Source: Hydrogenothermaceae bacterium (GTDB lineage Bacteria > Aquificota > Aquificia > Aquificales > Hydrogenothermaceae). From it: 64,000 nt of DNA. The translations under genes were made by a program, and so were the position numbers. Within the stretch, counting starts at the first letter, position 1. Each line of letters opens with the position of its first letter. This document shows, piece after piece, positions 26,123 through 58,523 of this stretch. The DNA lies in contig WIAL01000051.1 of NCBI GenBank assembly GCA_015519975.1, forward strand, positions 1 through 64,000. Reading direction: 5' to 3'. The notes beneath the pieces are model-generated. The model was not told where the DNA came from. It ran no database searches and worked only from the letters and a program-made list of their open reading frames with translations.

Positions 26123-26127
26123 ATGTT

Positions 26128-29796: not shown

Positions 29797-29812
29797 TTCT
29801 GTTTACCTCCAA

Positions 29813-37997: not shown

Positions 37998-38014
37998 TCT
38001 TCCTCTATATACCC
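37983..38014. terminator. Hairpin at convergent gene ends
   Basis: GGGTATATAG (37983-37992) and CTATATACCC (38005-38014) pair around the overlapping stops of the tape measure and the leftward 66-residue gene. There is no good T-run, so it may be a weak bidirectional terminator or mRNA end stabiliser. Confidence 0.45.
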
Positions 38015-38706: not shown

Positions 38707-38714
38707 GCTTTAAA
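38707..38714. repeat. Right copy of putative target-site duplication GCTTTAAA
   Basis: Identical to 453-460; the identity continues one further base (T). It lies 9 bp beyond the cas1 stop codon. Confidence 0.65.
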
Positions 38715-38723
38715 TATTTATAC

Positions 38724-39638
38724 TTATCCTCCTATATCCACTTTTCTAATCTTTTTTGAGATTTTATACTTGGCAAGTCTTTCTTCGTAAGCCTTTAAGA
38801 ACTTTTTCCTTCCGTCTTCATTTAAGTAAGCATAGTTCAGGTCTTTGTCAAAATCTTTAATAGTTATCTGACCTGTATTTATCAATGAAAAAATCAAAGG
38901 ATCAATGATAAATGGCTTGAAAATCTCTGCAAGATCAAGGGAAAGAGAAAATCTTTTTTCCTGTGGCGAGTGAAGATAGCTGATTGTAGGGTCAAGCTGA
39001 GTTCTATAAATTTCAGTTAGAACTGTGTTATACATTATTGAGTTCCCAAAGCTGATTAATGCATTTATTGGATTGTCTGGAGGTCTTTTTTCTCTTTTTT
39101 CCATTTGAAAATCTTCATTTTTGATAATTCTATTAAAAAGCTGATAATATCTGTCTCTAATGTTTCCTTCTATTGCCATTAATTCTTCGGATGTTTTTGT
39201 CTCAAAAATTTTAGGTAAAAGTTCTTTTTCTATGTCTTCATAGTCCTTAGGATTTATACCATTTTTTCTTAAATTTCTTAAAATATGATGAACGGCTCCT
39301 TCTATAAAAGAAATTGCTAGATATTGCCTTTTATCACTATCCAAATAATGCCTTACTTGCTCAACTAAAAGTGAACCTGAAACGTTTTTCTTTCTTGGCA
39401 AAAAACTTCCTGAATAAAAGCCGTAGTAGTTATAAAAATGGATAGGAATATCATACTGAGAAAGATAGTTTAAAGCTTTTGTGTTTATATCAAGTTCGCC
39501 AAATACATAAATTGCATCAATATCATTTATTGGAAGAGCTTTTTTAACAGCTTGCCCATCCTGCTCCATTTCAAAATATAAAGTGTTCTCTTTTCTCCTA
39601 AGCCTTCCGTTTGAGTTAATATAAAATCTGCGGGACAT
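38724..39638 (-). CDS. cas1: CRISPR-associated integrase Cas1
   Basis: Spacer-integration enzyme of 304 residues. The N-terminal beta domain is followed by a helical catalytic domain with the metal ligands visible in EGNIRDRYYQLF (Glu), SYLHSPQE (His) and SLDLAEIFKPFIID (Asp/Glu). It belongs to the I-B type. It is the last host gene before the prophage and starts 3 bp after the EVE-HNH gene. Its normal neighbour cas2 is on the far side of the insertion. Confidence 0.96.
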   Translation of the reverse strand: MSRRFYINSNGRLRRKENTLYFEMEQDGQAVKKALPINDIDAIYVFGELDINTKALNYLSQYDIPIHFYNYYGFYSGSFLPRKKNVSGSLLVEQVRHYLDSDKRQYLAISFIEGAVHHILRNLRKNGINPKDYEDIEKELLPKIFETKTSEELMAIEGNIRDRYYQLFNRIIKNEDFQMEKREKRPPDNPINALISFGNSIMYNTVLTEIYRTQLDPTISYLHSPQEKRFSLSLDLAEIFKPFIIDPLIFSLINTGQITIKDFDKDLNYAYLNEDGRKKFLKAYEERLAKYKISKKIRKVDIGG

Positions 39639-39641
39639 AAT

Positions 39642-40553: not shown

Positions 40554-43500
40554 TAAAATTCTCCCAAAATTTATTTAAATTTTTTATATCTTCCTCAGTT
40601 GTATATATACAGCAATTTTGTTCACCATTCCAATCTTTTACATTTAAAACTTTTATCCCAGCTTCTTCGTATATCTTTCTCTTGATTTTCCATTTTTCCA
40701 AATAATATGGATCGTTTAACAGTCCTAAGTGTTCCCAGTATATATTTTTATCAGTAAAATAAAAATCTGGTAAAAGCTTTTTACCATTTAGGGCAATCTC
40801 TTTTTCATACTCATAATTCCAACCTAAATGATCAAATAAAAGCATTAAAATAGCTTCAGATATACTACGGGTGATTAGTCCGTTATGGGCTATTATTTTA
40901 AAATTGGTATCTGGTTCAATATAAGTTTGCTCTTTCTCTATTAGTTCGGTTCTTTTCTTCTCACGATAGTCCTCTTTATTTTCAGATGATCTATCCTGAT
41001 ATTTAAACTCTAATTTCTCAGCAAAACTTTTTATGTTAATCTCTTTTTCGAAAACTAGCTTAATATTTGTTTTATCTTCTGAAACGGTCTCGTTTTTTAT
41101 CCTGCCTTGATAGGTGTTTAAGTTGACTAAATGAATCTTTTTGCCATTAGTTTCAAAATCTGCCCCCGAAGTTTTGTAATTGTAAGAAATATCATTCAGC
41201 TCAAGTAGTGCCGAGATATATAAATCAAGCTTTGATAAAAGTTTCACGTTTTGTATAGAAACATATCCTGTGGACTCAGGTAGTTCCAAAAGATTTTCTC
41301 CGAATAGCTTACTGCTTCTTTCTATTTCCAACGGCGTCTCGTAAAGAAGTTCTTCATTTTCCACAAGCAAATAAAGTTTTTTCTTGGCTCTGGTTAAAGC
41401 TGTATATAAAAGTTCTCTGGTAAACAGGTTTCCAATGTTTTCAGGCAGTATAACCACAACTGTATCAAACTCGCTCCCTTGAGACTTATGGATTGTGATA
41501 GCATATGCATAGTCATACTCATAACCCATTTTATCAGCTGAAAAAGGAATAACCTGTCCACCTTTGAATTTGATTTTTTTGTCACTAACACTTCCTATCA
41601 TCCCATTGAATGTTTCTACACAATTTTCTTTATCAGGAGGGCAGTATGTATTTATAAGCTTTATGATTTTTGTATTTTCCCAATCAAATTTATCTTTATT
41701 AAACAGGCTGTTTATATATCTGTTTAGATGATTACTTCCTGAGTATCCTTCTTTCTTAGGCATCAAAATCTGGAAAGTTTCAGGATCTTGAGCAAGTTTT
41801 TCTTTTGTTATTCCCTCTTTCTGGATTATCTGGTTTATAAGATCTTCAAGCTCTTTCTGACTGGAAAATTTTAGGATTTGGAAGTTGTTTTGATTAATGA
41901 CATCGGTTAAATAAGGCTTTACATCTTCTGGCGTAAGATTCTCATTTCTCAGTTTATTGGCCAGCTGGATAAATTTATCACTGCTTCTATAACTTTTTTC
42001 CAGTTTTATAAGATATTTTGAGCGTAGACAATTCTGCTCAAGGAAATTGTAAATATCTTTTGCAGGATAACCGTAACCTATTGGAGGAAGTTGTTTTATA
42101 TCTCCAACAAAGATGATTCTTTTGATCTGTCCAAGATCTACTGCGTTTAAAAGATAATAAAGCAAGTCTAAGGGAACCATTGAAATTTCGTCAATTATAA
42201 GATTTTCAATTTCTTGAACTTCTCCATTCCCATTAAAAATAAATAGCTCATTATCCATAAAACCGTTGGATTTTAGAAAATAGTGGATAGTTTCAGACTC
42301 CAGACCTTCTTCTCTAAGCCTTTCACTTGCTTTTCCTGTAGGTGTGAGGATTTTGAAATTTTCCTCTAGCTCATCCAAAACTTCAGTAAAAATCTTGATC
42401 ACCGTTGATTTGCCAGCTCCTGCAACACCTGATACAAAAGTAAGTTTATTTTCTAAAAGTTTTTGTATTGCACCTTCTTTCTCTTGAATTTCGTCTTCGG
42501 GAATATCACCAAGTACATTTTGGATGGCGTTTTTTATATATACACCGTTAATTTTTATGGTGTGTTTTAGCAAATTTTTTATATTTTTTTCAACTTTTTT
42601 CTCAATTTCTGCTAGCTTCTTTAAAGTAAGGTATTTTTTATCCCAATCTATTTCTATATTCTCGTTAATCTCAGGAGTCTCTAAGATTTTTTCAAAATCC
42701 AGATCTAAATTTCCTGTTCCCAAACCAGAAGAAAGTCTTTTTCTAATATAGTTTTCCATATCTTTAAAAGAAACCCAGATAAATCCAGGATCATCTCTGT
42801 AAACTTTGAAGTATTCGTGTATCAGGGCCCTTATTCTGTAAGGATTGAGATAAAAATTTTTGGCAATTTTGTTTTTGTTTTCTTCACTGTGATTGCCTTG
42901 ACGATAAGTTTCAATACTTCTTTTATACTCGCCGTAGTCAATATCTTCGAAGCTCAGATTAATACTGCCGTCAAGAGAAGGGATGAACTCTTCATACAGA
43001 ATATACGGGTTCTGCTTGATCTGATTGATGCTCAAAATATTCTTATCTATCAAAAGTTTTATTCTTTCTATAACTTTTTCATTTGATATTGGATAGTAAA
43101 CAATTATGTCTTCAAGTAACTGGATAAAATCTTCTGAAATATCATCCTTAGGATGTAGGTTTTTCTTCTTGCTTCCTATGAAAAACCTTTTGCCGTTTGT
43201 TTCAAAGAAATAGTTATGGTTTTTAATTGTTTCAAACAGTAGTTTCTTGATATCCTCTTCAAATTCCAAGTTTTCTTCATAATCATTAAATGCAGTCCAC
43301 CAGTATAAAAATCTTCCTACTGCAGGAAGCCCTGGATATTTGAAGGATAAATATGTTTTTGTGAGCTGTTGAATTTTTGCATCTATTTTTGAAAAATTTC
43401 CACCAGTTGAAGGATCTATTCCATAAAACTCAAGAAGAGAGATAGCCTGTCTGAGCTTTTTCAGGTATTTTATAAGAATATGCTGTGGAATAAATAAAGA

Positions 43501-44310
43501 AAGATTTCTAAAATATTTTTCATCCTGAGGTTCAACTTTAAGTATATTTTTGACCTGCTCTAAAAGCTCTTCATTTCCTGAATCAATCAACTCCTGAAAC
43601 GGAAATCTATATCTATCTTCTTCATCAAGGATAAAACACCACTCCTCTCCCCAACGACCACCTGTGTTGCTTTTGTTGAAAATCTCTGTTTGCCCACTTC
43701 CACGGGAAATAAAGTTGTCATTCTTGTCTTTAATAACCGAATAACCAACAACAAACTTTCCAGACTCTTCAGGGAAATTAACAGTATAGAAAAGGGCAAT
43801 TGAAGATCTATTGATATGTTTTCTATAATCTTGAGGAAAATATTTCACCTGATTCCAATTTCTTACAAAATCCCACGGTTTTTGATCTTTCTTTTTACAA
43901 ATTTTTAAAGCTTTTTCATCAAATTTATCCATTTTCCTTGCAGGATTTTTTGTATGAACGTATGGATTTTCTTCTCTAAAGGCTGAAAAACTATCGCACG
44001 GTGGAATATCAGCTATTCCATTTTCATTCTCTAGCTGAGCACTATGGATAGTGCAAATATATCCAAGTTTTGAATGTTTTAAAAAGCATTTATTTTGATT
44101 TAGATAGTTATTTATATAATTTTTTGCTTTTGATGTATCCGTATAACATTTATTGTTATTTATGACCAGTGTTCTATGTATAAAAAGGTTCGCATCCTGC
44201 TGACAGGATAGATTGTTTTTAGGCTCCTTGCAGCTCTCCCCATCCCAACCGTTGTCGTGCCAGGTCAATCTAACTGATACATGTTTTGTTATATTACTTT
44301 GGTTTTTCAT
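40522..44310 (-). CDS. Large RecD2/TraA-like helicase with C-terminal nuclease domain
   Basis: 1262 residues. The N-terminal ~600 residues are unassigned, with a Cys-rich patch early on and a helical region. A superfamily-1B helicase follows: Walker A SGVAGAGKST (about 627-637), Walker B LIIDEISMVP (about 705), TIHKSQGSEFD (about 937), then a TALTRAKKKL motif. The last ~110 residues resemble a PD-(D/E)XK nuclease (ISEAILMLLFDHLGW, LLPDFYF, YWEHLG). It overlaps both neighbours. A DNA-degrading defence or repair machine is the likely role. Confidence 0.8.
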   Translation of the reverse strand: MKNQSNITKHVSVRLTWHDNGWDGESCKEPKNNLSCQQDANLFIHRTLVINNNKCYTDTSKAKNYINNYLNQNKCFLKHSKLGYICTIHSAQLENENGIADIPPCDSFSAFREENPYVHTKNPARKMDKFDEKALKICKKKDQKPWDFVRNWNQVKYFPQDYRKHINRSSIALFYTVNFPEESGKFVVGYSVIKDKNDNFISRGSGQTEIFNKSNTGGRWGEEWCFILDEEDRYRFPFQELIDSGNEELLEQVKNILKVEPQDEKYFRNLSLFIPQHILIKYLKKLRQAISLLEFYGIDPSTGGNFSKIDAKIQQLTKTYLSFKYPGLPAVGRFLYWWTAFNDYEENLEFEEDIKKLLFETIKNHNYFFETNGKRFFIGSKKKNLHPKDDISEDFIQLLEDIIVYYPISNEKVIERIKLLIDKNILSINQIKQNPYILYEEFIPSLDGSINLSFEDIDYGEYKRSIETYRQGNHSEENKNKIAKNFYLNPYRIRALIHEYFKVYRDDPGFIWVSFKDMENYIRKRLSSGLGTGNLDLDFEKILETPEINENIEIDWDKKYLTLKKLAEIEKKVEKNIKNLLKHTIKINGVYIKNAIQNVLGDIPEDEIQEKEGAIQKLLENKLTFVSGVAGAGKSTVIKIFTEVLDELEENFKILTPTGKASERLREEGLESETIHYFLKSNGFMDNELFIFNGNGEVQEIENLIIDEISMVPLDLLYYLLNAVDLGQIKRIIFVGDIKQLPPIGYGYPAKDIYNFLEQNCLRSKYLIKLEKSYRSSDKFIQLANKLRNENLTPEDVKPYLTDVINQNNFQILKFSSQKELEDLINQIIQKEGITKEKLAQDPETFQILMPKKEGYSGSNHLNRYINSLFNKDKFDWENTKIIKLINTYCPPDKENCVETFNGMIGSVSDKKIKFKGGQVIPFSADKMGYEYDYAYAITIHKSQGSEFDTVVVILPENIGNLFTRELLYTALTRAKKKLYLLVENEELLYETPLEIERSSKLFGENLLELPESTGYVSIQNVKLLSKLDLYISALLELNDISYNYKTSGADFETNGKKIHLVNLNTYQGRIKNETVSEDKTNIKLVFEKEINIKSFAEKLEFKYQDRSSENKEDYREKKRTELIEKEQTYIEPDTNFKIIAHNGLITRSISEAILMLLFDHLGWNYEYEKEIALNGKKLLPDFYFTDKNIYWEHLGLLNDPYYLEKWKIKRKIYEEAGIKVLNVKDWNGEQNCCIYTTEEDIKNLNKFWENFNGKRDLLTTG

Positions 44311-45403
44311 AATTTCCTTTAAACCTCTCCACCGGATATTTTTGTTTCGTTTTTTCCAGTTTTTCTTCTGTGATTTTTAAAATATCTATTCCAAGCTTTT
44401 CCGATAAATGAAGCAAATATGTAAAAATATCTGCTATCTCGTAGCCTATCTCTTTTTTCTCCTCTTGGGAAATATCTTCTGGTTTTTTGTCCCACCACTG
44501 GAAATGCTCCAGTAATTCTGCAGATTCTATGGAAACTGACACTGCCAGATTTTTTAATGTGTGATACTTTTCCCACTGTCTTTCTTTGACAAAATTTTTA
44601 AGTTCGTTTTTCAGTTTTTCCAATGAATAACAGGCTTTTGGGTCATATTTGAAAATCATTTCTTCTAAAAGCTGGTTAAACTTTTCTGTTTCTGGGAGAT
44701 CTTTTTCAAATTCAAAATTTTTCAAAAACTGCTCGTAATATTTTATTTTTTCCTCAATAAATCGGTTTAGTTCCTCAACTTTTGGATACAAATCCAGTTC
44801 TCTTTTTTCCTTTTTTATTATTAACAGATTTTCTACGGCATTTCTGACATTTTGTTCTAATTGGGTTTTTTCTAAAAGTTCGTTGAATAGAATCGGTGGG
44901 ACTGTTTTATTTTTTTCAATCCAGATTAAAGAAAGTATCGGGCGAATAACATAAAAATATTTTTTAATTTTAACTTGCTGTGTTTTTAGATATGTTCTGT
45001 AATTGGCTTTTGCCATATTGAGGTAATGATGTATCATTGCTTTTGGATTAAAGGAAAGGTTCGCAAGTTCTTTTATTTTTTGAAAAAACTCTTCATCTTT
45101 TTTGTAAACTATAGGAGAGTTCAGCCACTCAATAATGGAAGGATTGGATTTTCTAAGTAAAAATAATGCTTTTTTTAAATCCCAGCCAACAAAATCAAAC
45201 GGTTCTTCGGTGATTTCTATTGTATCTTTTTGTGGCAATATGGATAAGTAATAATCAAGCTTATTTACATAAATAAACCTAATGTCGTAATCACTATCGG
45301 GAGACTCAAATCCCCACGCCCTGCTCCCTGACTCACAGGCATAAAGAATTGTGATGTTGTTTTCTTTTTCAATTTCTTCTAACTTTTGTTGTATTTTACT
45401 CAT
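44294..45403 (-). CDS. RlaP-type nucleotidyltransferase fused to MazG-like pyrophosphatase
   Basis: 369 residues. The N-terminal ~250 match the RlaP/YcgL polymerase-beta-like family, with GSRAWGFESPDSDYDIRF holding the GS and DxD ligands. The C-terminal ~110 look like a MazG/dCTPase domain (ESAELLEHFQWW, GYEIADIFTYLLHL). RlaP is linked to RNA repair and MazG-type domains hydrolyse NTPs or dNTPs, so the fusion suggests nucleotide or RNA-end processing. It overlaps the helicase gene by 17 bp. Confidence 0.85.
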   Translation of the reverse strand: MSKIQQKLEEIEKENNITILYACESGSRAWGFESPDSDYDIRFIYVNKLDYYLSILPQKDTIEITEEPFDFVGWDLKKALFLLRKSNPSIIEWLNSPIVYKKDEEFFQKIKELANLSFNPKAMIHHYLNMAKANYRTYLKTQQVKIKKYFYVIRPILSLIWIEKNKTVPPILFNELLEKTQLEQNVRNAVENLLIIKKEKRELDLYPKVEELNRFIEEKIKYYEQFLKNFEFEKDLPETEKFNQLLEEMIFKYDPKACYSLEKLKNELKNFVKERQWEKYHTLKNLAVSVSIESAELLEHFQWWDKKPEDISQEEKKEIGYEIADIFTYLLHLSEKLGIDILKITEEKLEKTKQKYPVERFKGNYEKPK

Positions 45404-45421
45404 TGTTTAATATCCAAAGAT

Positions 45422-46453
45422 TTAATTAAGAAAATTTTTAAATTTTTCTATAAATTTTTCCTTTTCAATAAATGCTACTTCTTCTACCTTGGGTTCGTGA
45501 AAATTTTGCTTTTGATACTCTAAAAGAATAACTTTCTTTTTACTAGGATTATTTATATCATCCAAGATTCTACAATCTTGAGCATCACCATCTATTAATA
45601 TATTAGGATATTCTTTTAGTAATATTTTTTTTAAGTCTTTAGTAACTATTACGGATATATTTAGATTTTTGGGTAAAACAAAGTTTGATTTTTTAGCATT
45701 TTCCTTATCGTAAGAATAAGTAAGATGATAATTCGATGGAATTTGGTTTGGATTTCTAGGAATTTTAGTATAATCATAGAACAAAATATCATAAAAAAGG
45801 TCAAAAATAGTCAATTCATCATCATCTGTAAATTTTCTATTTTTATTCCTTTCTAAGGAAAGATTAATTCTTTTTTGTAGATATGTTTCTACATTATTAA
45901 TTTCATTACTTTTAATTTTTCTATTATCAATTTTATATCGATATTGTCCTAAATTATAATTTTTCTTTTCAAGCACTTCTTTAATGTCTTTACATTTAAA
46001 TTTCTTCTCTTCCCATCTGATATCTGAGTAACCATTTAATCGAAGTACGGGATAATAATTATTCCTTTTACAATAATTTATAAAATTTATAATTTCTTCT
46101 ATAAGTTTGGTAAGAAATCCACTAAAATCATCATGATACCAAAGAGTCCTATTTAATTGGCTTATAAACTGATTTCTTCCAGGATTTCCTGGATATGCAA
46201 AGCAAATTTTTTCACATATCCCAGCATTTGGACAAAGATTTTTCCCAGATAAATTATGAGGAACAAATAAAATTTGGGCAATGTTTATTCTGTATTTGTT
46301 TAATGGTTCCTTAAATCTACGGCTCCTTGAATTTTTTGAGAGCGTTAAAATATAAGAAGGTTTTTTATTCAAAATATCTTCTGTGATTTTTATAGCACTT
46401 TTGGGCCATATACTATGAATTGTTTCGTTTATTTTATTTATAATATATACCAT
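45422..46453 (-). CDS. GP88-like protein of unknown function
   Basis: 343 residues. A Cys-rich stretch (LCPNAGICEKICFAYPG), LRLNGYSDIRW and a late DGDAQDCRILD match the pattern of the phage GP88 family. The biochemical role is unknown. It lies 24 bp after cas4 and 18 bp before the RlaP fusion. Finding a phage-type family inside a cas operon is unusual. The family call is from motif memory. Confidence 0.65.
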   Translation of the reverse strand: MVYIINKINETIHSIWPKSAIKITEDILNKKPSYILTLSKNSRSRRFKEPLNKYRINIAQILFVPHNLSGKNLCPNAGICEKICFAYPGNPGRNQFISQLNRTLWYHDDFSGFLTKLIEEIINFINYCKRNNYYPVLRLNGYSDIRWEEKKFKCKDIKEVLEKKNYNLGQYRYKIDNRKIKSNEINNVETYLQKRINLSLERNKNRKFTDDDELTIFDLFYDILFYDYTKIPRNPNQIPSNYHLTYSYDKENAKKSNFVLPKNLNISVIVTKDLKKILLKEYPNILIDGDAQDCRILDDINNPSKKKVILLEYQKQNFHEPKVEEVAFIEKEKFIEKFKNFLN

Positions 46454-46477: not shown

Positions 46478-46990
46478 TTATCCATAACAAAACTCATAAT
46501 ATGCACATTTTTTGCAATAAAGAACATCTATAACAGGTGGAGGTTTTCCCTGTTTTAAAATTTTATCAATTTCTACTAATGCTTTTTCTATCTCTTTTTC
46601 ATACTCAGGAGTTAGTTCTATATATTCTCTTTTTCTTTGTTTAGGATAGTTTATTATGCCTTTTTTGTTAATTCCAAGTTTCTTCAGGTAGTAGAGATAA
46701 TAAAGGATCTGCATTTTATCGGCTTGTGCCATTTTGTCAGAGTATTTAACTTCGCGGATATTCAGGCTGTCAACAATATCTATTGAAATCAGATTATCTA
46801 TCAGAACTTCCTTTGGTTTGTCCCTTTTATAACTATTCTCATGAAGCAGTGCTCCCATCAGAACTTTGTCAGATTTACTCTCCATACTGATATTCCTATC
46901 AAAAAGCCATAGCTTTCTGGGACAAATAAAATAATAATTGACCTTTATACCGTTAGTCTTAAGCTCTTCGAAGTTTATTTCTTGTTGCAT
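46478..46990 (-). CDS. cas4: CRISPR-associated exonuclease Cas4
   Basis: 170 residues. An iron-sulphur Cys set is visible (ICPRKLW near residue 24 and CKKCAYYEFC at the end), with RecB-type nuclease residues around IREVKYSDK. It trims pre-spacers for Cas1-Cas2. It overlaps the transglycosylase gene by 16 bp. It is separated from cas1 by four non-cas genes, unlike the usual cas4-cas1-cas2 order. Confidence 0.93.
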   Translation of the reverse strand: MQQEINFEELKTNGIKVNYYFICPRKLWLFDRNISMESKSDKVLMGALLHENSYKRDKPKEVLIDNLISIDIVDSLNIREVKYSDKMAQADKMQILYYLYYLKKLGINKKGIINYPKQRKREYIELTPEYEKEIEKALVEIDKILKQGKPPPVIDVLYCKKCAYYEFCYG

Positions 46991-48279
46991 AAGGCTATAA
47001 AATTTTCTTCTTTATTTAAATTTAATATTTTTTGATAGAAAATATAAGTATTATGAAAACCTCTTCTTTTATTTCTATTTGCCCCACGGAAAATGATTAT
47101 GTCTATACTTAATGATTGGCATATTTCGCAGTTGCATTTTTTCCAAATTTTGCTTTCTAAGGTTTCTTTATATAACTCGTAAAATTTTTCCTCATTAAAG
47201 CTATCTCTAAGAAAAAATTTATCATAGGAAATGACTTCTTCTAAAATAGCGTCTATATTTTTAATATGTCCTCTATCAAAATCACGAAGTAATTTTAAAA
47301 TTTGATTTTCTTTTTTTTCTATTTCACTCAACTGAATATTACTAGAAATTTTGTTTCTCGTTCTTGATATTTGACTTTGAGGAACTCTTATGGCTGAATA
47401 CCATTTTGTATCAACCCCCAAATAGTTGTGAGTTGCTCTTAGCCAGGATTTTCTATAGTACGAAGCACTGTCAAAACTATATATATTATATTCTTTCATC
47501 TTATTAATGAGACTTTCTCTTAAAATTCCTAAAAGGTGTATTTTAATTTTTGTTGTATCTATCTCCTTATTTATTTCATCTAAAAGTTCTGATATAAATT
47601 CTGTTTTTCGGGGAACTAATCCACCAAAAGCTAAATATTCATATCCCTGTTCAATAAGTTGTTTAGCACTATCTATGTAGGTTTCAATACTGTATCCCTG
47701 AACAGCTCCTACAGGAATAAATGATTTATTCTTTGATAATTTTAAAAACTTGTATGCATTTTCTATGCTTAATTTTCTTCTATATTCTTTTTCTTCCTTG
47801 GACAATACTACTTTAAATTTTCCGTTCTTTTGTTGTGTAACTTCCGCGAAAGAGAATTCATCTATTTTTGATCTATCTTCTAAGATGATGACATCTGAAC
47901 AAATATGGTCGACAGATATTCCGTAATCAAAACCCAGGCTATCATAGTGATAAACTGCCTTTTCAACATCAAGTATAGGATTTTTTTCGTTAATATAAGT
48001 GAATGCTCCACAATCTCCCATAATATAAAATTGTGTAGGAAGCCTTAAATATTCTCTTATGTTATAGGAATTCCTTATCTTCGGCAAACCATTTTCTTTT
48101 ATAAGTTTTAATTTCAGCTCAAATAATCCTAAGCTAACTAATATTCCGTCATAAATAGGTTTTCCTAAAATCTCATGTGCAAATATTGAGTTCTCAAAAC
48201 CTGTTTTTGTATAAGTTTCAGTCAAGGGGTCAAAATCTTTATGAACCCAATCTTCCCAGTATGGTAAGAAATATTTCAT
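46975..48279 (-). CDS. TGT-fold transglycosylase, DpdA/TgtA5-like
   Basis: 434 residues with full TGT catalytic and zinc features: Asp89 in MGDCGAFTY, Asp124 in GISVDH, GAVQG, LAFGGLVPRK, HLLGI, nucleophile Asp270 in YSFDSASYYRK, and the zinc set Cys382, Cys384, Cys387, His409 (CNCEIC...FHN). Divergence from housekeeping tRNA enzymes and the non-tRNA context favour the DpdA type, which inserts 7-deazaguanine into DNA. It starts 1 bp after the HerA stop and overlaps cas4, so it is part of a coupled block. No preQ0 synthesis genes are in the window; substrate supply must come from elsewhere. Confidence 0.82.
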   Translation of the reverse strand: MKYFLPYWEDWVHKDFDPLTETYTKTGFENSIFAHEILGKPIYDGILVSLGLFELKLKLIKENGLPKIRNSYNIREYLRLPTQFYIMGDCGAFTYINEKNPILDVEKAVYHYDSLGFDYGISVDHICSDVIILEDRSKIDEFSFAEVTQQKNGKFKVVLSKEEKEYRRKLSIENAYKFLKLSKNKSFIPVGAVQGYSIETYIDSAKQLIEQGYEYLAFGGLVPRKTEFISELLDEINKEIDTTKIKIHLLGILRESLINKMKEYNIYSFDSASYYRKSWLRATHNYLGVDTKWYSAIRVPQSQISRTRNKISSNIQLSEIEKKENQILKLLRDFDRGHIKNIDAILEEVISYDKFFLRDSFNEEKFYELYKETLESKIWKKCNCEICQSLSIDIIIFRGANRNKRRGFHNTYIFYQKILNLNKEENFIALCNKK

Positions 48280-48280
48280 C

Positions 48281-50245
48281 TTATCTGTCCCATAGACTTT
48301 TTAAAGGCTGTGGATGTTCTCTTCCTTCTTTAGATAGCCTATTTCTGAATTTTACCATTAAACTTTTTCTTATTTTTAGAGCCGTTCCTGTTATTATAGA
48401 GACCCCTCTTTCAACCAATTTTAAGTTTTCTATATCTTCTTCTGAAATTGATTCTCCAACACTTTTTACAAAGCTTAGATCTTCTGGGTTTATTACTCTA
48501 TGGAGTATTAAAGTATTACATTGTGATACAGGTATATTATCAACTGCTGAGGGTTTTTGGGATATTATTATCAATCCTAACCCCATTTTTCTACCTTCAG
48601 TAGCTACTCTTCTAACTATATTTCTTGCCGCTTTACTTGCAGGATGATCTATATCTTCAATACCAGATTTTGGAATTAAAACTCTCGCTTCCTCTATTAC
48701 AAATGTAATTTGACTGTCTCCTTTATTGATGGATAATTCTTTTGATTTGTATTTAGAAAATGCATTGTAAGCTACATCATATAGTAATCCCCTCTGCATA
48801 ATTTCAGGACTAACATCAGATAAATCAAGATTGATGTTTGATATTATGTTGTACTTTCCGTTCTGTGAAGCAAAGTCTGTTATAAAATTTTTGTTATTTA
48901 TCGGAATTATTCCATTTTTCTGCAAGGTTTCTAATGTTGTAATTGCTTTTTCTATTTTTCTGATTATTGCAGCCCGTGATCTATCTCTATCTGGTAGAGA
49001 TTTTGCTCTTATTAATAATTCATTTAAGAAATTATTATTATTATCTATATATCTATGATTTTCAAGCTCTTCCAACCAATTAATAAAATATCCTTCTTGA
49101 GCTTCTGTAATTTCTTCTCCTGAAAAGGCAGAAATAAGATTTAAAATGTAATATTTATCATAACCATTATAATCAAATTCAATGCTTGGATATGCTGCCA
49201 AGGTCAACTTTATAACACGGTATAGAATTTCTTCTGGTACACCAGATTCTTCTTTAAATTTATGGAAAGAATATTCATACTTTCTTAAAAATTCATCGAG
49301 TTTTTTATATAATTCTCCTTCATTATCTATATCAGGAATTTCCTTTTCTAATACTGACATAAGCATAATTAATCTAAATAAAAGAGAGCTTAGCTTTAGT
49401 TCTTTACACATTTCTTGAAGCAAAAGTTGATCCAAATTAGAAATGGAACTATTTTTATAAATTTTTTCCTTGCAAAATTCTTTTCCAAAAACTAATTTGT
49501 CATTTATCTTCTCTTGTATCCATAAATTCCAATTTTCAATTAGATACTCTTGATATTCTTTTAGAAAATTTTTTAGCTCTTTATTTTCATTAATTTTATT
49601 TTTCATAAATTTAGTAAATCTTTCTTTTACGAATCCCAGGTTTATATAATCCCCGTGTGGGTCAAATATAATACTTTTTGCACCTCTAATAGTAAGTTCT
49701 TCCAATAAAGTACCGGTTGTAGTTGTTTTCCCCATCCCTGTCATTCCAAATATTCCACAATGCATTGTAATAATTTCATCACCTTTTAAGGAAAATTTTG
49801 CTAAGTTTTCTTCTTCATTAGGAGTTTGGATATATCCAGGATATAGATTATAGGCTTTATCTTCAAAAAACAGATTTTCTAAATTTTCAGCTTCTAAAAA
49901 ATAAACATCTGCTCCAGTTTCTACAGGTTTGGTTAAAGCAGTAATATCATTTCCACTAAGTTCTCCTAAAACTTCACATTCCGCTGTAAAAAACATAAAT
50001 CTTTCAGACTTCAAATACTTAGAAATTTCAGAACCAATTTTTTTCTTTTCTACAAAGAATTTTATAGTTTCAGGTGAAAGTAAAGGGTTTTCTGTAATTA
50101 TATCAATTACTTTTCCAACAACTTTATATTCTTTCATATCAACATAAACAAAAGCATTTTTCAAAGATTGCTCTAAATCGCGTGGAAATATAAAAGTAAA
50201 TTTGTTTGTAGAGGCCTCTCCAAACACTGTTCCTATTTTGCTCAT
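48281..50245 (-). CDS. HerA-like bipolar helicase/translocase
   Basis: 654 residues. An N-terminal HAS-barrel-like domain is followed by a FtsK/HerA motor with Walker A GIFGMTGMGKTT (about 164-175), IIFDPHGDY, and a late Walker B ITFVIEEARVLIP followed by LGLIIISQKPS. HerA forms a hexamer that pumps DNA into NurA. It overlaps NurA by 4 bp and is followed by the transglycosylase 1 bp later. Confidence 0.92.
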   Translation of the reverse strand: MSKIGTVFGEASTNKFTFIFPRDLEQSLKNAFVYVDMKEYKVVGKVIDIITENPLLSPETIKFFVEKKKIGSEISKYLKSERFMFFTAECEVLGELSGNDITALTKPVETGADVYFLEAENLENLFFEDKAYNLYPGYIQTPNEEENLAKFSLKGDEIITMHCGIFGMTGMGKTTTTGTLLEELTIRGAKSIIFDPHGDYINLGFVKERFTKFMKNKINENKELKNFLKEYQEYLIENWNLWIQEKINDKLVFGKEFCKEKIYKNSSISNLDQLLLQEMCKELKLSSLLFRLIMLMSVLEKEIPDIDNEGELYKKLDEFLRKYEYSFHKFKEESGVPEEILYRVIKLTLAAYPSIEFDYNGYDKYYILNLISAFSGEEITEAQEGYFINWLEELENHRYIDNNNNFLNELLIRAKSLPDRDRSRAAIIRKIEKAITTLETLQKNGIIPINNKNFITDFASQNGKYNIISNINLDLSDVSPEIMQRGLLYDVAYNAFSKYKSKELSINKGDSQITFVIEEARVLIPKSGIEDIDHPASKAARNIVRRVATEGRKMGLGLIIISQKPSAVDNIPVSQCNTLILHRVINPEDLSFVKSVGESISEEDIENLKLVERGVSIITGTALKIRKSLMVKFRNRLSKEGREHPQPLKSLWDR

Positions 50246-51888
50246 AGAATTCCTCCTCTTGATAAAAAGTCTCTTTTAAACAACTCAAGTATAGAATTTA
50301 TCATTGGTTTGATTTCACTAACAGGAATATCTTCAGAAATGAGAGTATTTATAAGTTTTTCAGATACGAAACCTTTTGATATTGTTTTAAATGTTTTTGA
50401 CGGAACTCTAACTAAATCATCTACATATTTAAGCATTATTGGAATTCCATAGTATTGATATGGATAACTAAAAAGATAAATACTTGCTATCAAATTCTTT
50501 ATCTTCTCTTCTTCATAATTTGGGAACTCTATTCTTAATGGGGCTTTCAATTCACTGGTTCGTATATAAGTCATAAAAAACTTAATATCAGGAATAATTT
50601 TTTCTATTATCAATCCTTCTAAAAACTCTTCTTGCCAGCCTGGGTCTGCACTACCAAACCTCCAATTTGTAATATCATAATTTTTATTTATTATTTCCTT
50701 TTTATTCGTTGTTATCCCTCTATGCCTTCTTATTTCTACAGGATTTAAATAGACAGCTGTTTCATCTTTAAAATCTAAAGAAAAAGTTAGAACTTGGTCA
50801 TCCTTAATGTTAAGTTTTATTATGTTATTCAAAAGTTTCTCAGAATTTTCTATAGGATTTATTTTTTTCTTATTGAGTAAATTCTGTATTTCTTTATATA
50901 AATTACTCGTTTTATTTTCAGATATATATTTGATAAGTGCCTGGATAAAATATACCTTAAGGAATTCGGTTGTTCTTTCTGTAGATTTTACACAAGATAC
51001 AAAATTAAAATCATATTCTTTACTCATTTCAATTAAGATTTTCAAAAGAAAAAAGTAAATTACAATTCCAGGCACTTCATTTGAATTTAATTGCAAGATA
51101 TTTTTAAATTCATTTTCGCCTCTTAACTTTCTATCAATATCTTTATAAATTTCATTTCTAAATATTAATTCTAATAATTTACCTGTTGCTATATCATATA
51201 GCTCTAAATTTTTGTCTAAAATTTTTATCTTCGTAGGTGGAAGAATATCTCTATTTATGTTTTTATCTAGAGTAAATATTTTTTTCAGCTCATCTTTAGA
51301 AAACTTAACCGTCAAAAATGGTCCCAACATACGAATTAGAGGACCATCCAATAATACTGAGTGAATTTTTTCTCCCTCAGATATAAGAATTGCTGAAGCA
51401 TAAATTCCAACAAGAAGATTTTGAATATAAGTTTGAAGCTCTATTTTTCTTTTAACTATATCTGAGTCTTCTAAGTACTTTATAGAAGAAATAATGGATA
51501 AAATTCTTTCATCCTTATCTTCTTTAGCTAATTTAAATCCAAAAGCAAGGCTATTTCTATAAAAAACTGAACCAGCTATTTGCTCTTCTTCATGTTGGGA
51601 TTCATCGATGGAAATTACCCATTTCCCTTCAAAAGTTTCAATTACTTTTTCTAAAAAGGAGTCATTTAATTCATTAATTTTTATAGGATAGGTAATATCT
51701 TTTACCTTTACTGTGTACTTTTTATCAAAAATATTTTTTATTTGAGTAACTAAAACTAAATAAGAATCCAGCTTAGATTCTATCTCTTCATCTTCCTCAA
51801 AAGATACAAAGATGTTTTCAAATATTTCTTCTAAAGATTTTCTTCGAGCTTCATCTTTAAAAAATGGAAGAGGTAGTTGAAAAGCCAT
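50242..51888 (-). CDS. NurA-like nuclease
   Basis: 548 residues, longer than typical NurA. Metal-ligand Asp residues are seen at Asp95 (VISIDESQH) and Asp181 (SVLLDGPLI). The C-terminal YPYQYYGIPIMLKYVDDLV matches the NurA closing motif. It works with HerA as a helicase-nuclease in DNA end processing and in several defence systems. It overlaps DUF6884 by 32 bp and HerA by 4 bp. Confidence 0.85.
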   Translation of the reverse strand: MAFQLPLPFFKDEARRKSLEEIFENIFVSFEEDEEIESKLDSYLVLVTQIKNIFDKKYTVKVKDITYPIKINELNDSFLEKVIETFEGKWVISIDESQHEEEQIAGSVFYRNSLAFGFKLAKEDKDERILSIISSIKYLEDSDIVKRKIELQTYIQNLLVGIYASAILISEGEKIHSVLLDGPLIRMLGPFLTVKFSKDELKKIFTLDKNINRDILPPTKIKILDKNLELYDIATGKLLELIFRNEIYKDIDRKLRGENEFKNILQLNSNEVPGIVIYFFLLKILIEMSKEYDFNFVSCVKSTERTTEFLKVYFIQALIKYISENKTSNLYKEIQNLLNKKKINPIENSEKLLNNIIKLNIKDDQVLTFSLDFKDETAVYLNPVEIRRHRGITTNKKEIINKNYDITNWRFGSADPGWQEEFLEGLIIEKIIPDIKFFMTYIRTSELKAPLRIEFPNYEEEKIKNLIASIYLFSYPYQYYGIPIMLKYVDDLVRVPSKTFKTISKGFVSEKLINTLISEDIPVSEIKPMINSILELFKRDFLSRGGIL

Positions 51889-52291
51889 TTATGATATCCT
51901 CCAATTTTCGAATATCCCCCATGTTTCCATAACCAAAAGAAATAAACCTTTTATTTAACTTTTTTGCTATGATTTCCAAACAGTTATAGTATTCCTTTCG
52001 AGCACCACCTTTATAATAAATAATAATGTCAAAGTTTTCCAGCACACTTTCAATTTGATCTTTCAGATTCTCACATTGCTTTTCATCCATTATTTGATTA
52101 TAAGGAGCTATTATTTCATCTCCATTTACAAGCCCATATTTTGCACTTAGGATATAAAAAGGAATATTTAGTTCTTTACTTCTTTTATAAAGATGTCTTA
52201 TACGAGAAGATTTATACAAATTTCCTGCTTTAGTTGGTTTATCTTCTTTTTTATTCCCACAAGCTGTTATCAAAACTATTTCTTTTTTCAT
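51857..52291 (-). CDS. DUF6884 protein (YaaA-like)
   Basis: 144 residues matching the DUF6884 pattern: ITACGNKKEDKPTKAGNLYKS, FYILSAKYGLV and a closing Gly-rich strand. The YaaA-like fold suggests nucleic-acid or nucleotide-related chemistry. It sits between the AAA ATPase (4-bp overlap) and NurA (32-bp overlap). Association with TGT-like enzymes is seen here; a shared modification pathway is inferred. Confidence 0.8.
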   Translation of the reverse strand: MKKEIVLITACGNKKEDKPTKAGNLYKSSRIRHLYKRSKELNIPFYILSAKYGLVNGDEIIAPYNQIMDEKQCENLKDQIESVLENFDIIIYYKGGARKEYYNCLEIIAKKLNKRFISFGYGNMGDIRKLEDIINGFSTTSSIF

Positions 52292-53583
52292 AATAAATAC
52301 TCATAAGCAGGGATTATTTTAATTTTATAGCTATCTACTTCCAATTCATCTTTTTCATCAAAAGTTAATATTAATCCTTCATTTAAATCAAAGTATTTCA
52401 ATGCTTCTACCAATCCTTCTATTTCTCTCTTTTTTGTTTTTTTATCTGCAATGGAAAAAGTTACTTGAACAGGCAGGATTTTTTCATTTTCAACAACTAT
52501 AAAATCACATTCTCTCTTTTCTTTAAAGTAAAAAACTTCTTTATTTAAAGCTTTAAACTCCTTCAGCAGTAAGTTTTCTAATAATATTCCTTTTTTTTCT
52601 TTAAATGAAAAACTCAAAGCATTTAAAAATCCATTGTCAATCAAATACACTTTCTTCTGTGATAATTCTGACTTTAAAACTGATTTTGTGTATTTTTTTA
52701 TCACTATTGAGAAAAATATAGTTTCTAGGATTTCAAGGTATTGGTACAAACTATCTCTCGCTGTTCTGTATCCTTGAGATTTTAACTCATTATAAATGTT
52801 ATTAATAGATAAAGGCTTTCCTACATCTTCTACAACTCTTTTTATGAAATATTTTAAAACTAAAAGATTTTTTATCTGATATCTTTCTATAACATCTCTG
52901 TAAAGCATCACTTCAAAGTATTCCTGCAAGACCTTTATTTTTAAGTTTTTATCCTCTAAAAAAACAACTTCTGGAAAACCTCCAAACTCCATATATTCCA
53001 CAAATAAGGACTTTATTTTTGCTCTTTTTTCTGTGTTGTATATATCAGTTTTTTTAACTTTAAAATTTTTAAAATTCAAAAACTCTTTAAATGTAAGAGG
53101 ATAAACTGTAATAGAAATATTTCTACCTCTCAAAGATGTTGCAATTTCTGAAGATAAAAGTTTTGAGTTAGAGCCTGTAATAAAAATATTTTTTGTATAA
53201 TTGTCATAAACTCTTCTAATGAATTTTTCCCAGCCTTCTATGTTTTGAACTTCATCAAAGAAAAAGTAAACTTTATCTAAAGAAATATCTGGATAAATTT
53301 CCTTATACGCTTCTATAAGTTGATTTAACTCCTCTCTTGTTATCTCAAGTCGTTCATCTTCAAAATTTATATAAACTATTCTTTCTATCGGAATTTTTTG
53401 CTGTTTAACTAATCTTTTGATTGTCTGAAAAAGAATGAAAGTTTTTCCACTTCTTCTAACACCAATTACAGATATTATTTTATTGGTATTAAGTGGAATT
53501 TCTATATTACGGTCTATAATTTCTGGTAGTTTTCTGCTTTGAAACTCAACGATAAGTTGTTTAAAAATTTCTTTCACTTTCAT
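52288..53583 (-). CDS. AAA ATPase with DUF4143 domain
   Basis: 431 residues. The AAA_14 part has Walker A GVRRSGKT (about 42-49) and Walker B VYFFFDEVQ. The C-terminal DUF4143 half has a KRECDFIVV nuclease-like strand. This ATPase family is widespread and mobile in thermophiles, with unknown function. It follows cas3 by 41 bp and is coupled to DUF6884 by a 4-bp overlap, making it the possible first gene of the embedded block, or a passenger. Confidence 0.85.
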   Translation of the reverse strand: MKVKEIFKQLIVEFQSRKLPEIIDRNIEIPLNTNKIISVIGVRRSGKTFILFQTIKRLVKQQKIPIERIVYINFEDERLEITREELNQLIEAYKEIYPDISLDKVYFFFDEVQNIEGWEKFIRRVYDNYTKNIFITGSNSKLLSSEIATSLRGRNISITVYPLTFKEFLNFKNFKVKKTDIYNTEKRAKIKSLFVEYMEFGGFPEVVFLEDKNLKIKVLQEYFEVMLYRDVIERYQIKNLLVLKYFIKRVVEDVGKPLSINNIYNELKSQGYRTARDSLYQYLEILETIFFSIVIKKYTKSVLKSELSQKKVYLIDNGFLNALSFSFKEKKGILLENLLLKEFKALNKEVFYFKEKRECDFIVVENEKILPVQVTFSIADKKTKKREIEGLVEALKYFDLNEGLILTFDEKDELEVDSYKIKIIPAYEYLL

Positions 53584-53624: not shown

Positions 53625-55925
53625 TTACAAAAATATATCTTTATCAAACTGATAATTTTTGAGGGCTTCTTTATCTATTCTTATACCAAGTTCATCATCA
53701 TAAACAAAGTATTCTGCAAGTAGGTATATATTTAAATCCTGATCTAAAATTTCGTAAGGATTTTTACTTTTAATTTTTTCGTCCAAAACCCAATAAACAG
53801 GAATTGGAACTTTTAAATCATTTATCTTTTTTAAGATTTCTATTTTCTTTAGCCTTCTTTCTTTTTTATTCTCAATATCTTTTAGATTTTTATATTCATC
53901 TAACAGTTTTTCAACGTTTTCCTTAAACACATAAGGGATAGCCTCGAAAGTAAAAGTATCTCTGAAAATAGCTTGAGCTTCTTTTTTGAATAAGTATTCC
54001 CAGTTTGAATTAAGAACTTTTTCAACTTCTTTCCATTTTTCAAAATATTTTGAGTTTAGTTCTTCTAACTTTTCTCTTGAGTAAAGGATTTCAACAATTT
54101 TTCTTTTTTCTTTGGATAATAGATAGCCTTCATTATCTAAATGCTGATTAATCAGCTTTAAACTTTCTTCTCTTAAAACTTTTTCATAAACCTGTGATAT
54201 TCTTTTTTCATCAACTTGAGAAAGAATATAAACATTTTGTTCTTTCCCTTTGTAATCTTCTTTTCTATGTCTCCAAACTCTTCCCATTCTCTGTATGAGG
54301 CTATCTGCAGGAGCAACTTCTGTAAATAAAACATCAAAATCTATATCAAGTGAAGCTTCTACAAGCTGTGTTGAAATCCAGATTTTGCCTTTTCCAGTTT
54401 CATAATCTTTTTTTATCTGTTCTTCTTTATCTTTTCTAGTTTTCCAGATAAAACGGCTATGGAGGAGATTTTTATCTTGGTAGTTTAATTTTTCATAAAC
54501 TTCTTGTGCAGTGCTTACAGTGTTTACCAGAACAAGAACATTCTTTCCACTTTTTGCTATTTTTGTAATATCCTCTAATGCTTCAAAAATATTTTTTTCT
54601 AATATTTTTACTTTGTGTCTTTTGGTGTTATCTATTGTATCTGGTTCGTCTGTTTTTACTTCAAAGCCAAGTTTTTCAAACTCTTTTTTTATTATTTGTG
54701 GAAGTGTGGCAGTTATTATTAAATACCTTGCTCCAAGTTTTGTTGTTTCTTCTATCTGTCGTAGGATTGGAACTATCTGGGCAGGGTCAAAGCCTTGAAT
54801 TTCGTCAATTATAATATCTGAATAGGACAAAGTAGCGTAGATTTTTTCATAAGTTGGATATTTGAAAACCGCCGTAAAAAGCTGGTCTGCTGTTGATATG
54901 GTAATTGGTTTTGATAGGTTTTTAGTATTGTCGTAGTCCCTTAAAACTGTAAAGTCTTCCTTTTCTCTATTTTCATAAATATAAAACAGACTTGTTGAAT
55001 GCAGAAGGCCAACCTTATCATTGCCAAAAATTTCTTTCATAGTTTCAAACATTGCATTTGTAGAGGTTCTATTTGGCAGGACATAAAACATTTTCCTTTT
55101 TGACCATATAGCTGCAAGGCCTGTTTTCCCAAGTCCTGTATCTGCAACTAAAACAAGGTTTTCTTTATCCTTAAACTTCTCTTGAAAAGGTCTTAATTTT
55201 TGAGGTTTCTTGTTGTTTTTTAAATAATTTAAAAACAATTTTTCTCTATTTTCTTTTATAGGTTCTTCTTCTATTACTAAATCTTCTCCAGATGCAGAAT
55301 GGTCTATCCTTATAAGTAGTCCTGCTATTTTGATAAGGGTTTTTATAAAATCATCATCAGCTCTTAGTTTGTTATTTAATTCTTCAATGGTAGCTACATT
55401 GTCAACTATATACTCAAGATGTTTTTTGTAAAAATCTTTTGTTTCTTCTGATAAGCTTGTTATCCCTAGATGTGAAAAAAAGTTAGAAATGTTTTCTTCT
55501 ATCTCACTGATTAATAAATCTATCCCAGAATAGTTTAAAAACTCTCTTCCTCTGGCGTGATGGTTGATTATTGAGTAGATGATAATTGTTAGTTCTTCAA
55601 ATGGGAATTCATTTTGTAGTTTCCTAAGAAATAACGGAGATAAGTATTGGTGAGGAACTTTATCATCTCTTATTTTCCCATTGCATTTAACAAGTTTCAG
55701 CTTAGGATTTACAGGAAGTTTACACTGAAAAAGTTTATTCAACTTTCCATAGTCGTGATATTCAATAGCTACTTTTAAAAGCCCTTTTTCTTCATCTGTT
55801 AAAACATTGGGATAACACTGATCAAATATCTCAAACTGATAAAATAAAACCTTAATATGCTCTTCTAAAGTAGTTCCGTCTGATTTAGCAAGATGGGTTT
55901 TGAGATGGTTATTTAATGAAAGCAA
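53625..55925 (-). CDS. cas3: CRISPR-associated helicase-nuclease Cas3 (HD first)
   Basis: 766 residues. The HD nuclease has His57-Asp58 (EYHDYGK) and His122-His123 (NHHARG). The helicase has Walker A ADTGLGKTG (261-269), DEIQ (374-377), TAT (405-407) and the RMGRVWRH motif VI. It degrades DNA marked by the I-B Cascade complex. It follows the UDG-like gene by 35 bp in the I-B block. Confidence 0.94.
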   Translation of the reverse strand: MLSLNNHLKTHLAKSDGTTLEEHIKVLFYQFEIFDQCYPNVLTDEEKGLLKVAIEYHDYGKLNKLFQCKLPVNPKLKLVKCNGKIRDDKVPHQYLSPLFLRKLQNEFPFEELTIIIYSIINHHARGREFLNYSGIDLLISEIEENISNFFSHLGITSLSEETKDFYKKHLEYIVDNVATIEELNNKLRADDDFIKTLIKIAGLLIRIDHSASGEDLVIEEEPIKENREKLFLNYLKNNKKPQKLRPFQEKFKDKENLVLVADTGLGKTGLAAIWSKRKMFYVLPNRTSTNAMFETMKEIFGNDKVGLLHSTSLFYIYENREKEDFTVLRDYDNTKNLSKPITISTADQLFTAVFKYPTYEKIYATLSYSDIIIDEIQGFDPAQIVPILRQIEETTKLGARYLIITATLPQIIKKEFEKLGFEVKTDEPDTIDNTKRHKVKILEKNIFEALEDITKIAKSGKNVLVLVNTVSTAQEVYEKLNYQDKNLLHSRFIWKTRKDKEEQIKKDYETGKGKIWISTQLVEASLDIDFDVLFTEVAPADSLIQRMGRVWRHRKEDYKGKEQNVYILSQVDEKRISQVYEKVLREESLKLINQHLDNEGYLLSKEKRKIVEILYSREKLEELNSKYFEKWKEVEKVLNSNWEYLFKKEAQAIFRDTFTFEAIPYVFKENVEKLLDEYKNLKDIENKKERRLKKIEILKKINDLKVPIPVYWVLDEKIKSKNPYEILDQDLNIYLLAEYFVYDDELGIRIDKEALKNYQFDKDIFL

Positions 55926-55960
55926 TTAAATTAACCCTTTAAAATATTTTTTAGATTTGC

Positions 55961-56833
55961 TTACCTTAAACATTCTGTATATTCCTTTATTTTTTCTTCA
56001 ATAAAGATTTTTATTTCTTCATCAGTAGGTAATTTGACATTAGCATATTTAATATTAGACTGTAAATTAACATCAGGACACCCCATATTTTGAAATTTAT
56101 TTTTATATTGACCTTTCCCATTTAACAATTCACGGAAATTTTCTATTTCTTCTTTTGAAAAGTGATCAGAGACTTTTTTCTTCTTTCTAGAATTAGGATG
56201 AGGCAAATATATTGTGGGTATTCCATTTTGTGAACTGCAGTTTGCTTTTATGTAATTTTTGGCAATACTTCCAAATACTATTATAAGCTTAGCTCCTGTT
56301 ATTCTTAATATATCACAACAAAAATTTCCTGCACATACAGGTAAGGCTTTTTTTACCCCTTTTTCATTTGAAGATTTGCAATGAACCAGTTCTGTTAAGC
56401 AGTAATCTATCCCGGGTTTAGCAGGTCTTCCAAGAATTTCTTCTACTCTTCTTTGTATACTTGACCAGTACCTCACTGGATTACTTCTACTTCCATCTTT
56501 ATTTAACACCCTATTATTTAAAACCCAGCTATATCTTCCTCTGTCTTTGAATCTGTTTATAAAAAAGTCTGCTATCATTGGATCTGGCCAATCTAAAGTT
56601 GGATATAATTCACAACTTGAATATGCTGGATTTGAGCTAATTACTAGTATAGGTGCATTAACTATATCTCCATTCCATGGTTCTGGTAATTGAAAATCAC
56701 AAAGACTCTTAACATTTCCACAAATACGCTGAAAATTAATAATATCATCACAAGGGTGGGATGTATCACTTTCCATAAGTAATTCACAAAAGTTTGAACA
56801 TTTTACAATATCAAATAATAATCGAGGAACCAT
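55961..56833 (-). CDS. Uracil-DNA-glycosylase-like protein in the cas operon
   Basis: 290 residues. UDG-fold features are visible: motif A-like LVISSNPAYSS, an ELVHCKSSN stretch, IIVFGSIAK and a motif C-like LPHPNSR. Cys clusters (CSNFC near the start, CAGNFCCD centrally) may bind an Fe-S cluster. The canonical catalytic motif is altered, so its activity is uncertain. It is placed between cas5 and cas3, where subtype I-B has no such gene. It may recognise modified bases. Confidence 0.7.
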   Translation of the reverse strand: MVPRLLFDIVKCSNFCELLMESDTSHPCDDIINFQRICGNVKSLCDFQLPEPWNGDIVNAPILVISSNPAYSSCELYPTLDWPDPMIADFFINRFKDRGRYSWVLNNRVLNKDGSRSNPVRYWSSIQRRVEEILGRPAKPGIDYCLTELVHCKSSNEKGVKKALPVCAGNFCCDILRITGAKLIIVFGSIAKNYIKANCSSQNGIPTIYLPHPNSRKKKKVSDHFSKEEIENFRELLNGKGQYKNKFQNMGCPDVNLQSNIKYANVKLPTDEEIKIFIEEKIKEYTECLR

Positions 56834-56857
56834 TATCTTTTCTCCTATTAAATAGTT

Positions 56858-57496
56858 TTATATCCAATATAAAATATATTCTCCATCAAAATTGTTTATA
56901 TCTTTAACCACTGTTCTTGTCTTTGTATAAACAAGGTTTATTGGTTTGTAGCCTGTTATATTTTTATTTTCATCAACTACTGTATCAAGTGCCATGTTGA
57001 AGAGGCTTCCTTTTTGCCCTTTTTCTTTAGTCCAGATTAGATAGATATTTGTCCAGTCGTGGTATTTATCTTTATATTTGTTAAATGGAATTTCTTCCAA
57101 ATTTTCTTTTACGAATATATCTATTATTAAATCTTCTTGTCTTCCAAGTCTAAAGATTTTTGGAGAATTTTGGATCGCCTTTATAATTTTTTCCTCAAAT
57201 GGAGATTTTATGTGGATAATCCATTTGCATTCATAGAGTTTTTGGATTGGGATTATATTTGTTTTTATTTCCTTTTTGGTTTCCAAGATTAGTTGTTCTT
57301 TTTCTATAGAAACGCTTTTATAACTCCCCTGAATAGAAAGTTTTGTGTTCTCATAGTTTATACTCTCATAGTCAGTTATAGCTCTTAAAAAGCCGTAAAT
57401 AGTAGACGGTAGTGGAAGAGGATAACTAAGATATGGATTTCCTACTGTTGGAATTCTAAAGTGCGCTGTTTCCTGATATATTTCAAGCCTTATCAT
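56858..57496 (-). CDS. cas5: Cas5, subtype I-B Tneap (Cas5t)
   Basis: 212 residues. The N-terminal ferredoxin strand (LEIYQETAHFRIP) and the LPLPSTIYGFLRA motif are characteristic of Cas5t. It caps the crRNA 5' handle in Cascade. Its start lies 3 bp after the cas7 stop. Confidence 0.93.
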   Translation of the reverse strand: MIRLEIYQETAHFRIPTVGNPYLSYPLPLPSTIYGFLRAITDYESINYENTKLSIQGSYKSVSIEKEQLILETKKEIKTNIIPIQKLYECKWIIHIKSPFEEKIIKAIQNSPKIFRLGRQEDLIIDIFVKENLEEIPFNKYKDKYHDWTNIYLIWTKEKGQKGSLFNMALDTVVDENKNITGYKPINLVYTKTRTVVKDINNFDGEYILYWI

Positions 57497-57499
57497 TTT

Positions 57500-58486: not shown

Positions 58487-58523
58487 TTTTTTATCCTCCG
58501 TTTATATTTTTAAATTTTATGTA

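Follow-up and report, generated by a model that had tools for sequence, protein, structure and literature searches.

Within a 64,000-nucleotide window of a Hydrogenothermaceae (Aquificota) genome (G000 in our set), we analysed a block of six open reading frames (ORFs) that span positions 46478-53583, all on the minus strand. Of the five junctions between neighbouring ORFs, four are overlaps (4, 32, 4 and 16 bp) and one is a 1-bp gap. An earlier note on this DNA had described six tightly coupled genes inside a cas operon; the ORFs lie at the coordinates first noted, share one strand and match the expected families. From upstream to downstream, the genes are:

52288..53583, minus strand: AAA_14/DUF4143 ATPase (Pfam 4.1e-37; PADLOC PDC-S01); optional upstream neighbour
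51857..52291, minus strand: DUF6884 protein, 144 aa, DpdC-like (Pfam PF21818, 2.5e-14); core gene, always first
50242..51888, minus strand: NurA-like nuclease, 548 aa (PF09376); exchangeable module
48281..50245, minus strand: HerA translocase/helicase, 654 aa (DUF87, 1.6e-19); exchangeable module
46975..48279, minus strand: DpdA DNA-guanine transglycosylase, 434 aa (NCBIfam NF041059); core gene, always last
46478..46990, minus strand: Cas4, I-B type (PF01930, 3e-55; PADLOC Cas4b, 1.1e-60); cas adaptation module, outside the core

The window DpdA matches the NCBIfam DpdA equivalog NF041059 with 353.7 bits (cut-off 200), whereas its match to the tRNA Tgt family PF01702 (E 0.0095, 15.5 bits) falls below the cut-off of 26.3 bits. 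The sole PDB match of the DpdA profile is 7UI4, a DNA-guanine transglycosylase (6.4e-71), and no tRNA Tgt chains appear among its PDB matches at E<=0.01. In a phylogenetic tree, the window protein groups with dpd-island enzymes in a clade apart from tRNA Tgt, and the separating branch is very long. The host encodes its own canonical tRNA Tgt separately (G000:C36). Residues D89 and D270 and a Cys3-His zinc site (C382/C384/C387/H409) are conserved in all 24 DpdA rows aligned. The prediction of a TGT-like enzyme with both catalytic aspartates and the zinc site, probably acting on DNA, is therefore borne out by these residues and by the equivalog score, the PDB match and a tree in which the protein does not group with tRNA enzymes.

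The DUF6884 protein matches PADLOC DpdC models (best 1.5e-6), and an authentic DpdC from an Enterobacter dpd island (PADLOC 6e-142) in turn matches PF21818 at 6e-5. DUF6884 has been assigned to dpdC (PMC11888242). The DpdA proteins of Picosynechococcus and Paenibacillus carry the domain as an N-terminal fusion, and those of Allocoleopsis, Nostoc and Scytonema have alignable N-terminal extensions. Conserved motifs (C11, LSAxxG and PY) are common to DpdC, and the window protein corresponds to the N-terminal domain of DpdC only. Its AlphaFold model is fair (pLDDT 86), and a comparison with PDB gave no significant match. Judged from sequence, DUF6884 is a DpdC-type domain; the gene set is therefore less foreign than the earlier note held, as the block appears to be a variant of known Dpd systems.

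The two genes between this outer pair are predicted to encode an adjacent HerA ATPase and NurA nuclease. HerA matches the PADLOC HerA model (9.5e-36) and PDB HerA chains including 9x1l, 8xau and 4d2i, and its Walker A (GMTGMGKT) and Walker B (FVIEEAR) motifs are invariant. The window copy of NurA scores just under the PF09376 cut-off (4.5e-4; 20.2 vs 21 bits); the family was matched by all seven NurA homologues (best 2.7e-10), among which DES95-97, DGP181-183 and D372 are invariant. Since NurA had no match among PDB sequences and its AlphaFold model is poor (pLDDT 46) and unusable for a claim about fold, the assignment draws on the profile matches and the conserved acidic residues. No plasmid matched NurA, and plasmid matches to HerA cover only ~30% of the protein. 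Scans of viral contigs with NurA or DpdA queries found nothing, and the HerA query found one distant locus. In the IMG/VR contig L059 (3083-9785), a NurA-HerA pair close to an integrase has a C5-cytosine methylase, Vsr and an AspBHI-like restriction enzyme as neighbours, which may be a parallel case of NurA-HerA joined to a different type of modification.

Of 136 Aquificota genomes, 17 have a strong match to DpdA: 4/41 Hydrogenothermaceae and 13/22 Desulfurobacteriaceae, with none strong elsewhere in the phylum. Beyond Aquificota, the search consisted of two narrow peptide patterns on genome contigs, which does not imply absence there. In every locus with both ends present in the sequence, DUF6884 is first and DpdA last. 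This pair recurs across the two families at ~55-60% identity, far beyond chance, and the version with NurA-HerA is found in both; recurrence elsewhere, on which the earlier note had staked its proposal, is thus observed. An apparently missing nuclease gene in locus L033 was an ORF-calling artefact, as it aligns in one frame over nearly its full length. The inner module takes several forms:

NurA-HerA: G000, G009, G026; partial in G004
NurA-HerA-UvrD/PDDEXK: G115, G117, G119
UvrD/PDDEXK, fused: G114, G116, G118
UvrD and PDDEXK, two genes: G122, G130, G131, G133, G134, G135
HerA with UvrD and PDDEXK: G121, where the contig begins within HerA

Two Thermovibrio loci, L034 and L035, share 98.7% nucleotide identity across the upstream genes and DUF6884, 89% in UvrD and 92% in DpdA; NurA-HerA is present only in L035, a clean presence/absence difference within a near-identical pair. 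In the DpdA tree, loci with NurA-HerA fall into two separate, supported groups, so the module was gained or lost more than once. This NurA occurs in eight of the 136 genomes, each of which belongs to the 17 with DpdA (p ~1e-8 if independent). One of the genomes with a UvrD and PDDEXK module, G131, also has an orphan NurA-HerA pair (L028 9971-13616, G131:C2), near an RHS-repeat gene and not on the contig of its DpdA locus. Outside the phylum, a DUF6884-DpdA fusion in Scytonema lies beside homologues of the same UvrD (3e-85) and PDDEXK (3e-42) proteins.

Between genera, dS of the block is 0.18-0.55 and dN/dS is 0.06-0.19 (0.12 for DUF6884), whereas Tgt is saturated at synonymous sites, with 79-81% protein identity. 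The low dS of the block against a saturated Tgt, together with these dN/dS values, indicates that the locus moved between genera and was kept functional under purifying selection. For cas6, dS between genera is 0.63-0.73, which makes transfer of the surrounding cas locus probable as well.

DpdB was looked for as PF14072 (DGQHR/DndB-like), which was absent in 12 of 13 DpdA genomes tested and detected in the positive control, an Enterobacter dpd plasmid. The lone match, in G131, has a score typical of a true DndB and lies on a contig other than that of DpdA; no DpdB was found at any of the Aquificota DpdA loci. A DndB-family gene does adjoin DpdA in a fecal phage and in Azospirillum. Among PADLOC matches of ten window proteins there were no dpdD-dpdK genes, and the other loci, compared by blastp and Pfam only, gave NurA-HerA or UvrD-PDDEXK.

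The block lies within a cas locus whose landmarks on either side include:

53625..55925, minus strand: Cas3, type I-B (PADLOC Cas3b, 3.7e-171); upstream context
38724..39638, minus strand: Cas1 (PF01867, 1.3e-91); downstream context

Upstream neighbours are cmr5/cmr6, cas6, type I-B effector genes and cas3; downstream neighbours are genes for a GP88 protein, RlaP-MazG, a large helicase (PADLOC PDC-S68) and HNH, followed by cas1. After the block, G026 has cas4, RlaP, the S68 helicase and cas1. The G009 block sits downstream of cas3 and retains DUF6884-NurA-HerA-DpdA without adjacent cas4/cas1; dpdA closes the series in its direction, and the gene after it is encoded on the opposite strand. AAA_14 is present in G009 and absent in G026, and neither AAA_14 nor Cas4 adjoins the Desulfurobacteriaceae DpdA loci. 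These arrangements remove Cas4 and the AAA ATPase from the core of the block, in which the earlier note had counted them as members. No cas genes lie beside those Desulfurobacteriaceae loci whose neighbourhoods were checked (what looked like Cmr6 close to the G117 locus is a redoxin), so linkage to cas genes is confined to Hydrogenothermaceae. Among the window, G026 and G009, the block is 86-93% identical, whereas the neighbouring I-B effectors are 27-35% identical where alignable; the block is therefore not tied to one effector.

Several other features of these cas loci were recorded. Across the effector region (window 53625-60116, G026 24691-30299 and G009 36162-43484), the contrast between effectors at 27-35% identity and cas6 plus the downstream block at 86-96% suggests that the I-B effector module was replaced. 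Between cas4 and cas1, window positions 44294-46453 encode a GP88-family protein and a fusion of a MazG-like domain with RlaP (RNA-repair polymerase beta family); G026 retains RlaP without GP88. A RecD/UvrD-like helicase of 1262 aa in the cas operon (window 40522-44310) matches PDC-S68 and, weakly at its C-terminus, PDC-S69; G026 retains it at 84% identity, placed between RlaP and cas1. A 311-aa protein next to the I-B effector genes and cas6 (window 60113-61048) has a weak Card1-like endonuclease match (PF09002, 0.0014). CRISPR-like arrays with related repeats, GTTTTATCTGAACTAAGTGG and GTTTTATCTGAACTATATGG, occur on block-bearing contigs (G000:C43 near 68848, which is L011 near 4848, and G026:C1 near 42614).

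We favour, with moderate confidence, the reading that the block is a DpdB-less, Dpd-type restriction-modification system. DpdA would exchange guanines in host DNA for preQ0 from the cell's queuosine pathway, a supply made plausible by the presence of QueC in 136/136 Aquificota genomes, and the DpdC-like DUF6884 protein would then probably convert the nitrile of preQ0 to an amide (ADG). The HerA translocase would seize unmarked DNA and NurA would degrade it; in relatives, a UvrD-PD(D/E)XK helicase-nuclease may attack unmarked DNA instead, or share the work. The predicted gene identities and active sites, the constant outer pair around an interchangeable inner module, the lack of DpdB, QueC alongside a separate Tgt, horizontal transfer and purifying selection are read from sequence; from them we infer which modified base is made, that it is placed in host DNA, and that unmarked DNA is restricted. 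The proposed chemistry follows known Dpd biology (PMC12839542, PMC11888242, PMC12707154), in which dpd islands of S. Montevideo restrict unmodified DNA, and the suggested role of NurA-HerA in restriction comes from its position, exchangeability and co-occurrence with DpdA. The consistent coupling of DpdA to a motor-nuclease makes modification-linked restriction, already raised in the earlier note, the best reading.

Several points weigh against it. The loci lack DpdB, which S. Montevideo uses to insert preQ0, so DpdA would have to work unaided or with a different ATPase, for example HerA; the canonical restriction genes dpdD-K were likewise not identified there. HerA and NurA also form a classical pair for end resection in repair, a link between the DUF6884 protein YfjM and DNA lesions has been described (PMC11701544), and the p-value for co-occurrence of NurA and DpdA ignores relatedness.

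Two of these points lead to a repair function, which we consider unlikely: HerA-NurA or UvrD-PDDEXK would resect ends, DpdA/DUF6884 would recognise damaged guanines or exchange them, and the system would play no part in defence. The archaeal resection pair, the place of YfjM among interactors of DNA lesions (PMC11701544) and the thermophilic hosts fit such a pathway; however, the patchy spread of DpdA in both families, transfer between genera, placement in a cas operon and exchangeable nuclease modules all fit defence better, and DpdA groups with dpd-island enzymes. Quite unlikely, in our judgement, is a CRISPR auxiliary function, in which DpdA/DUF6884 marks self and HerA-NurA feeds only unmarked DNA ends to Cas4-Cas1-Cas2 for spacers. 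In the window and G026 the block does have cas3 on one side and cas4/cas1 on the other, and in G009 it follows cas3; NurA/HerA are among putative CRISPR auxiliary genes (PMC10910872), and nurA-csm6-herA occurs near Pyrobaculum arrays (PMC3396285). However, the checked Desulfurobacteriaceae loci have no neighbouring cas genes, the G009 block has no adjacent cas4/cas1, and the adjoining I-B effectors diverge while the block does not. The first two of these observations also count against the self-marking step for spacer selection that had been proposed for this block. A combined scheme is similarly doubtful: NurA-HerA would be a restriction motor sensing 7-deazaguanine marks, and in the CRISPR-embedded form its products from unmarked DNA would feed Cas4-Cas1-Cas2, tying innate marking of self to adaptive spacer acquisition.

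The polarity of the system is not given by gene content alone, and modification-dependent systems acting on 7-deazaguanine DNA exist (GrwAB, PMC12137116), so that DpdA/DUF6884 might instead tag incoming DNA for destruction by the nuclease module. We regard this as very unlikely, as there is no obvious means of aiming DpdA at foreign DNA only and known dpd islands protect self (PMC11888242). Finally, it is hardly credible that the TGT-like protein is a tRNA-modifying enzyme in this neighbourhood by chance, since against its weak PF01702 match stand the equivalog score, the sole PDB match, the tree, the separate canonical Tgt and the recurrent locus.

Considered as a DpdB-less Dpd system, the block bears on how Dpd systems destroy unmarked DNA, which is little explored; up to eight candidate restriction genes are present in known islands. 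In the present block, only two genes of well-studied families (NurA-HerA) seem to make up the restriction side; they stand between two modification genes and can be exchanged for a UvrD-nuclease, which makes the block a four-gene, probably thermostable and testable version of the question. It also suggests that DpdB is dispensable, and such systems would escape surveys that demand dpdAB (as in PMC11888242).

Like the dpdA-K islands of S. Montevideo, the block combines DpdA and a DpdC-type domain with linked helicase/nuclease genes and a host preQ0 pathway; unlike them, it has no DpdB or identified dpdD-K, its inner module is NurA-HerA and/or UvrD-PDDEXK, and its DUF6884 protein is short and stands alone, whereas full-length DpdC has ~300 aa. 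Cyanobacterial and Paenibacillus clusters (L045, L046, L060, L061, L065) also combine DUF6884 with DpdA, and Scytonema adds the UvrD and PDDEXK homologues; however, DUF6884 is fused to DpdA there and flanks the module here, and no NurA-HerA was seen in those clusters. Some of them have a gene of DGQHR/DndB (DpdB-type) kind, or DEAD helicases together with a second TGT-like protein; in L045, L046 and L061 this second protein is short (~307-315 aa), and in two of the three it lies between DEAD-box helicases. BRC systems (PMC12839542) resemble the block in their HerA/FtsK translocase, in a TGT at some loci and in lacking DpdB. The block differs in having NurA and DUF6884, and no PglZ, DUF6079, DUF4007 or GNAT was found; for PglZ and DUF6079, which form the BRC core with HerA, the window genes scanned at 38.7-63.5 kb gave no Pfam match. 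NurA-HerA near cas genes is known from Pyrobaculum nurA-csm6-herA (PMC3396285) and from the FLSHclust auxiliary genes (PMC10910872), but DpdA and DUF6884 are not described there, and here cas linkage occurs only in Hydrogenothermaceae. We found no published description of this gene set in the literature searched, and its novelty is relative to that literature only. Set beside these systems, the block looks like a compact, undescribed form of 7-deazaguanine (Dpd) defence, marking self and destroying foreign DNA, in heat-loving vent bacteria.

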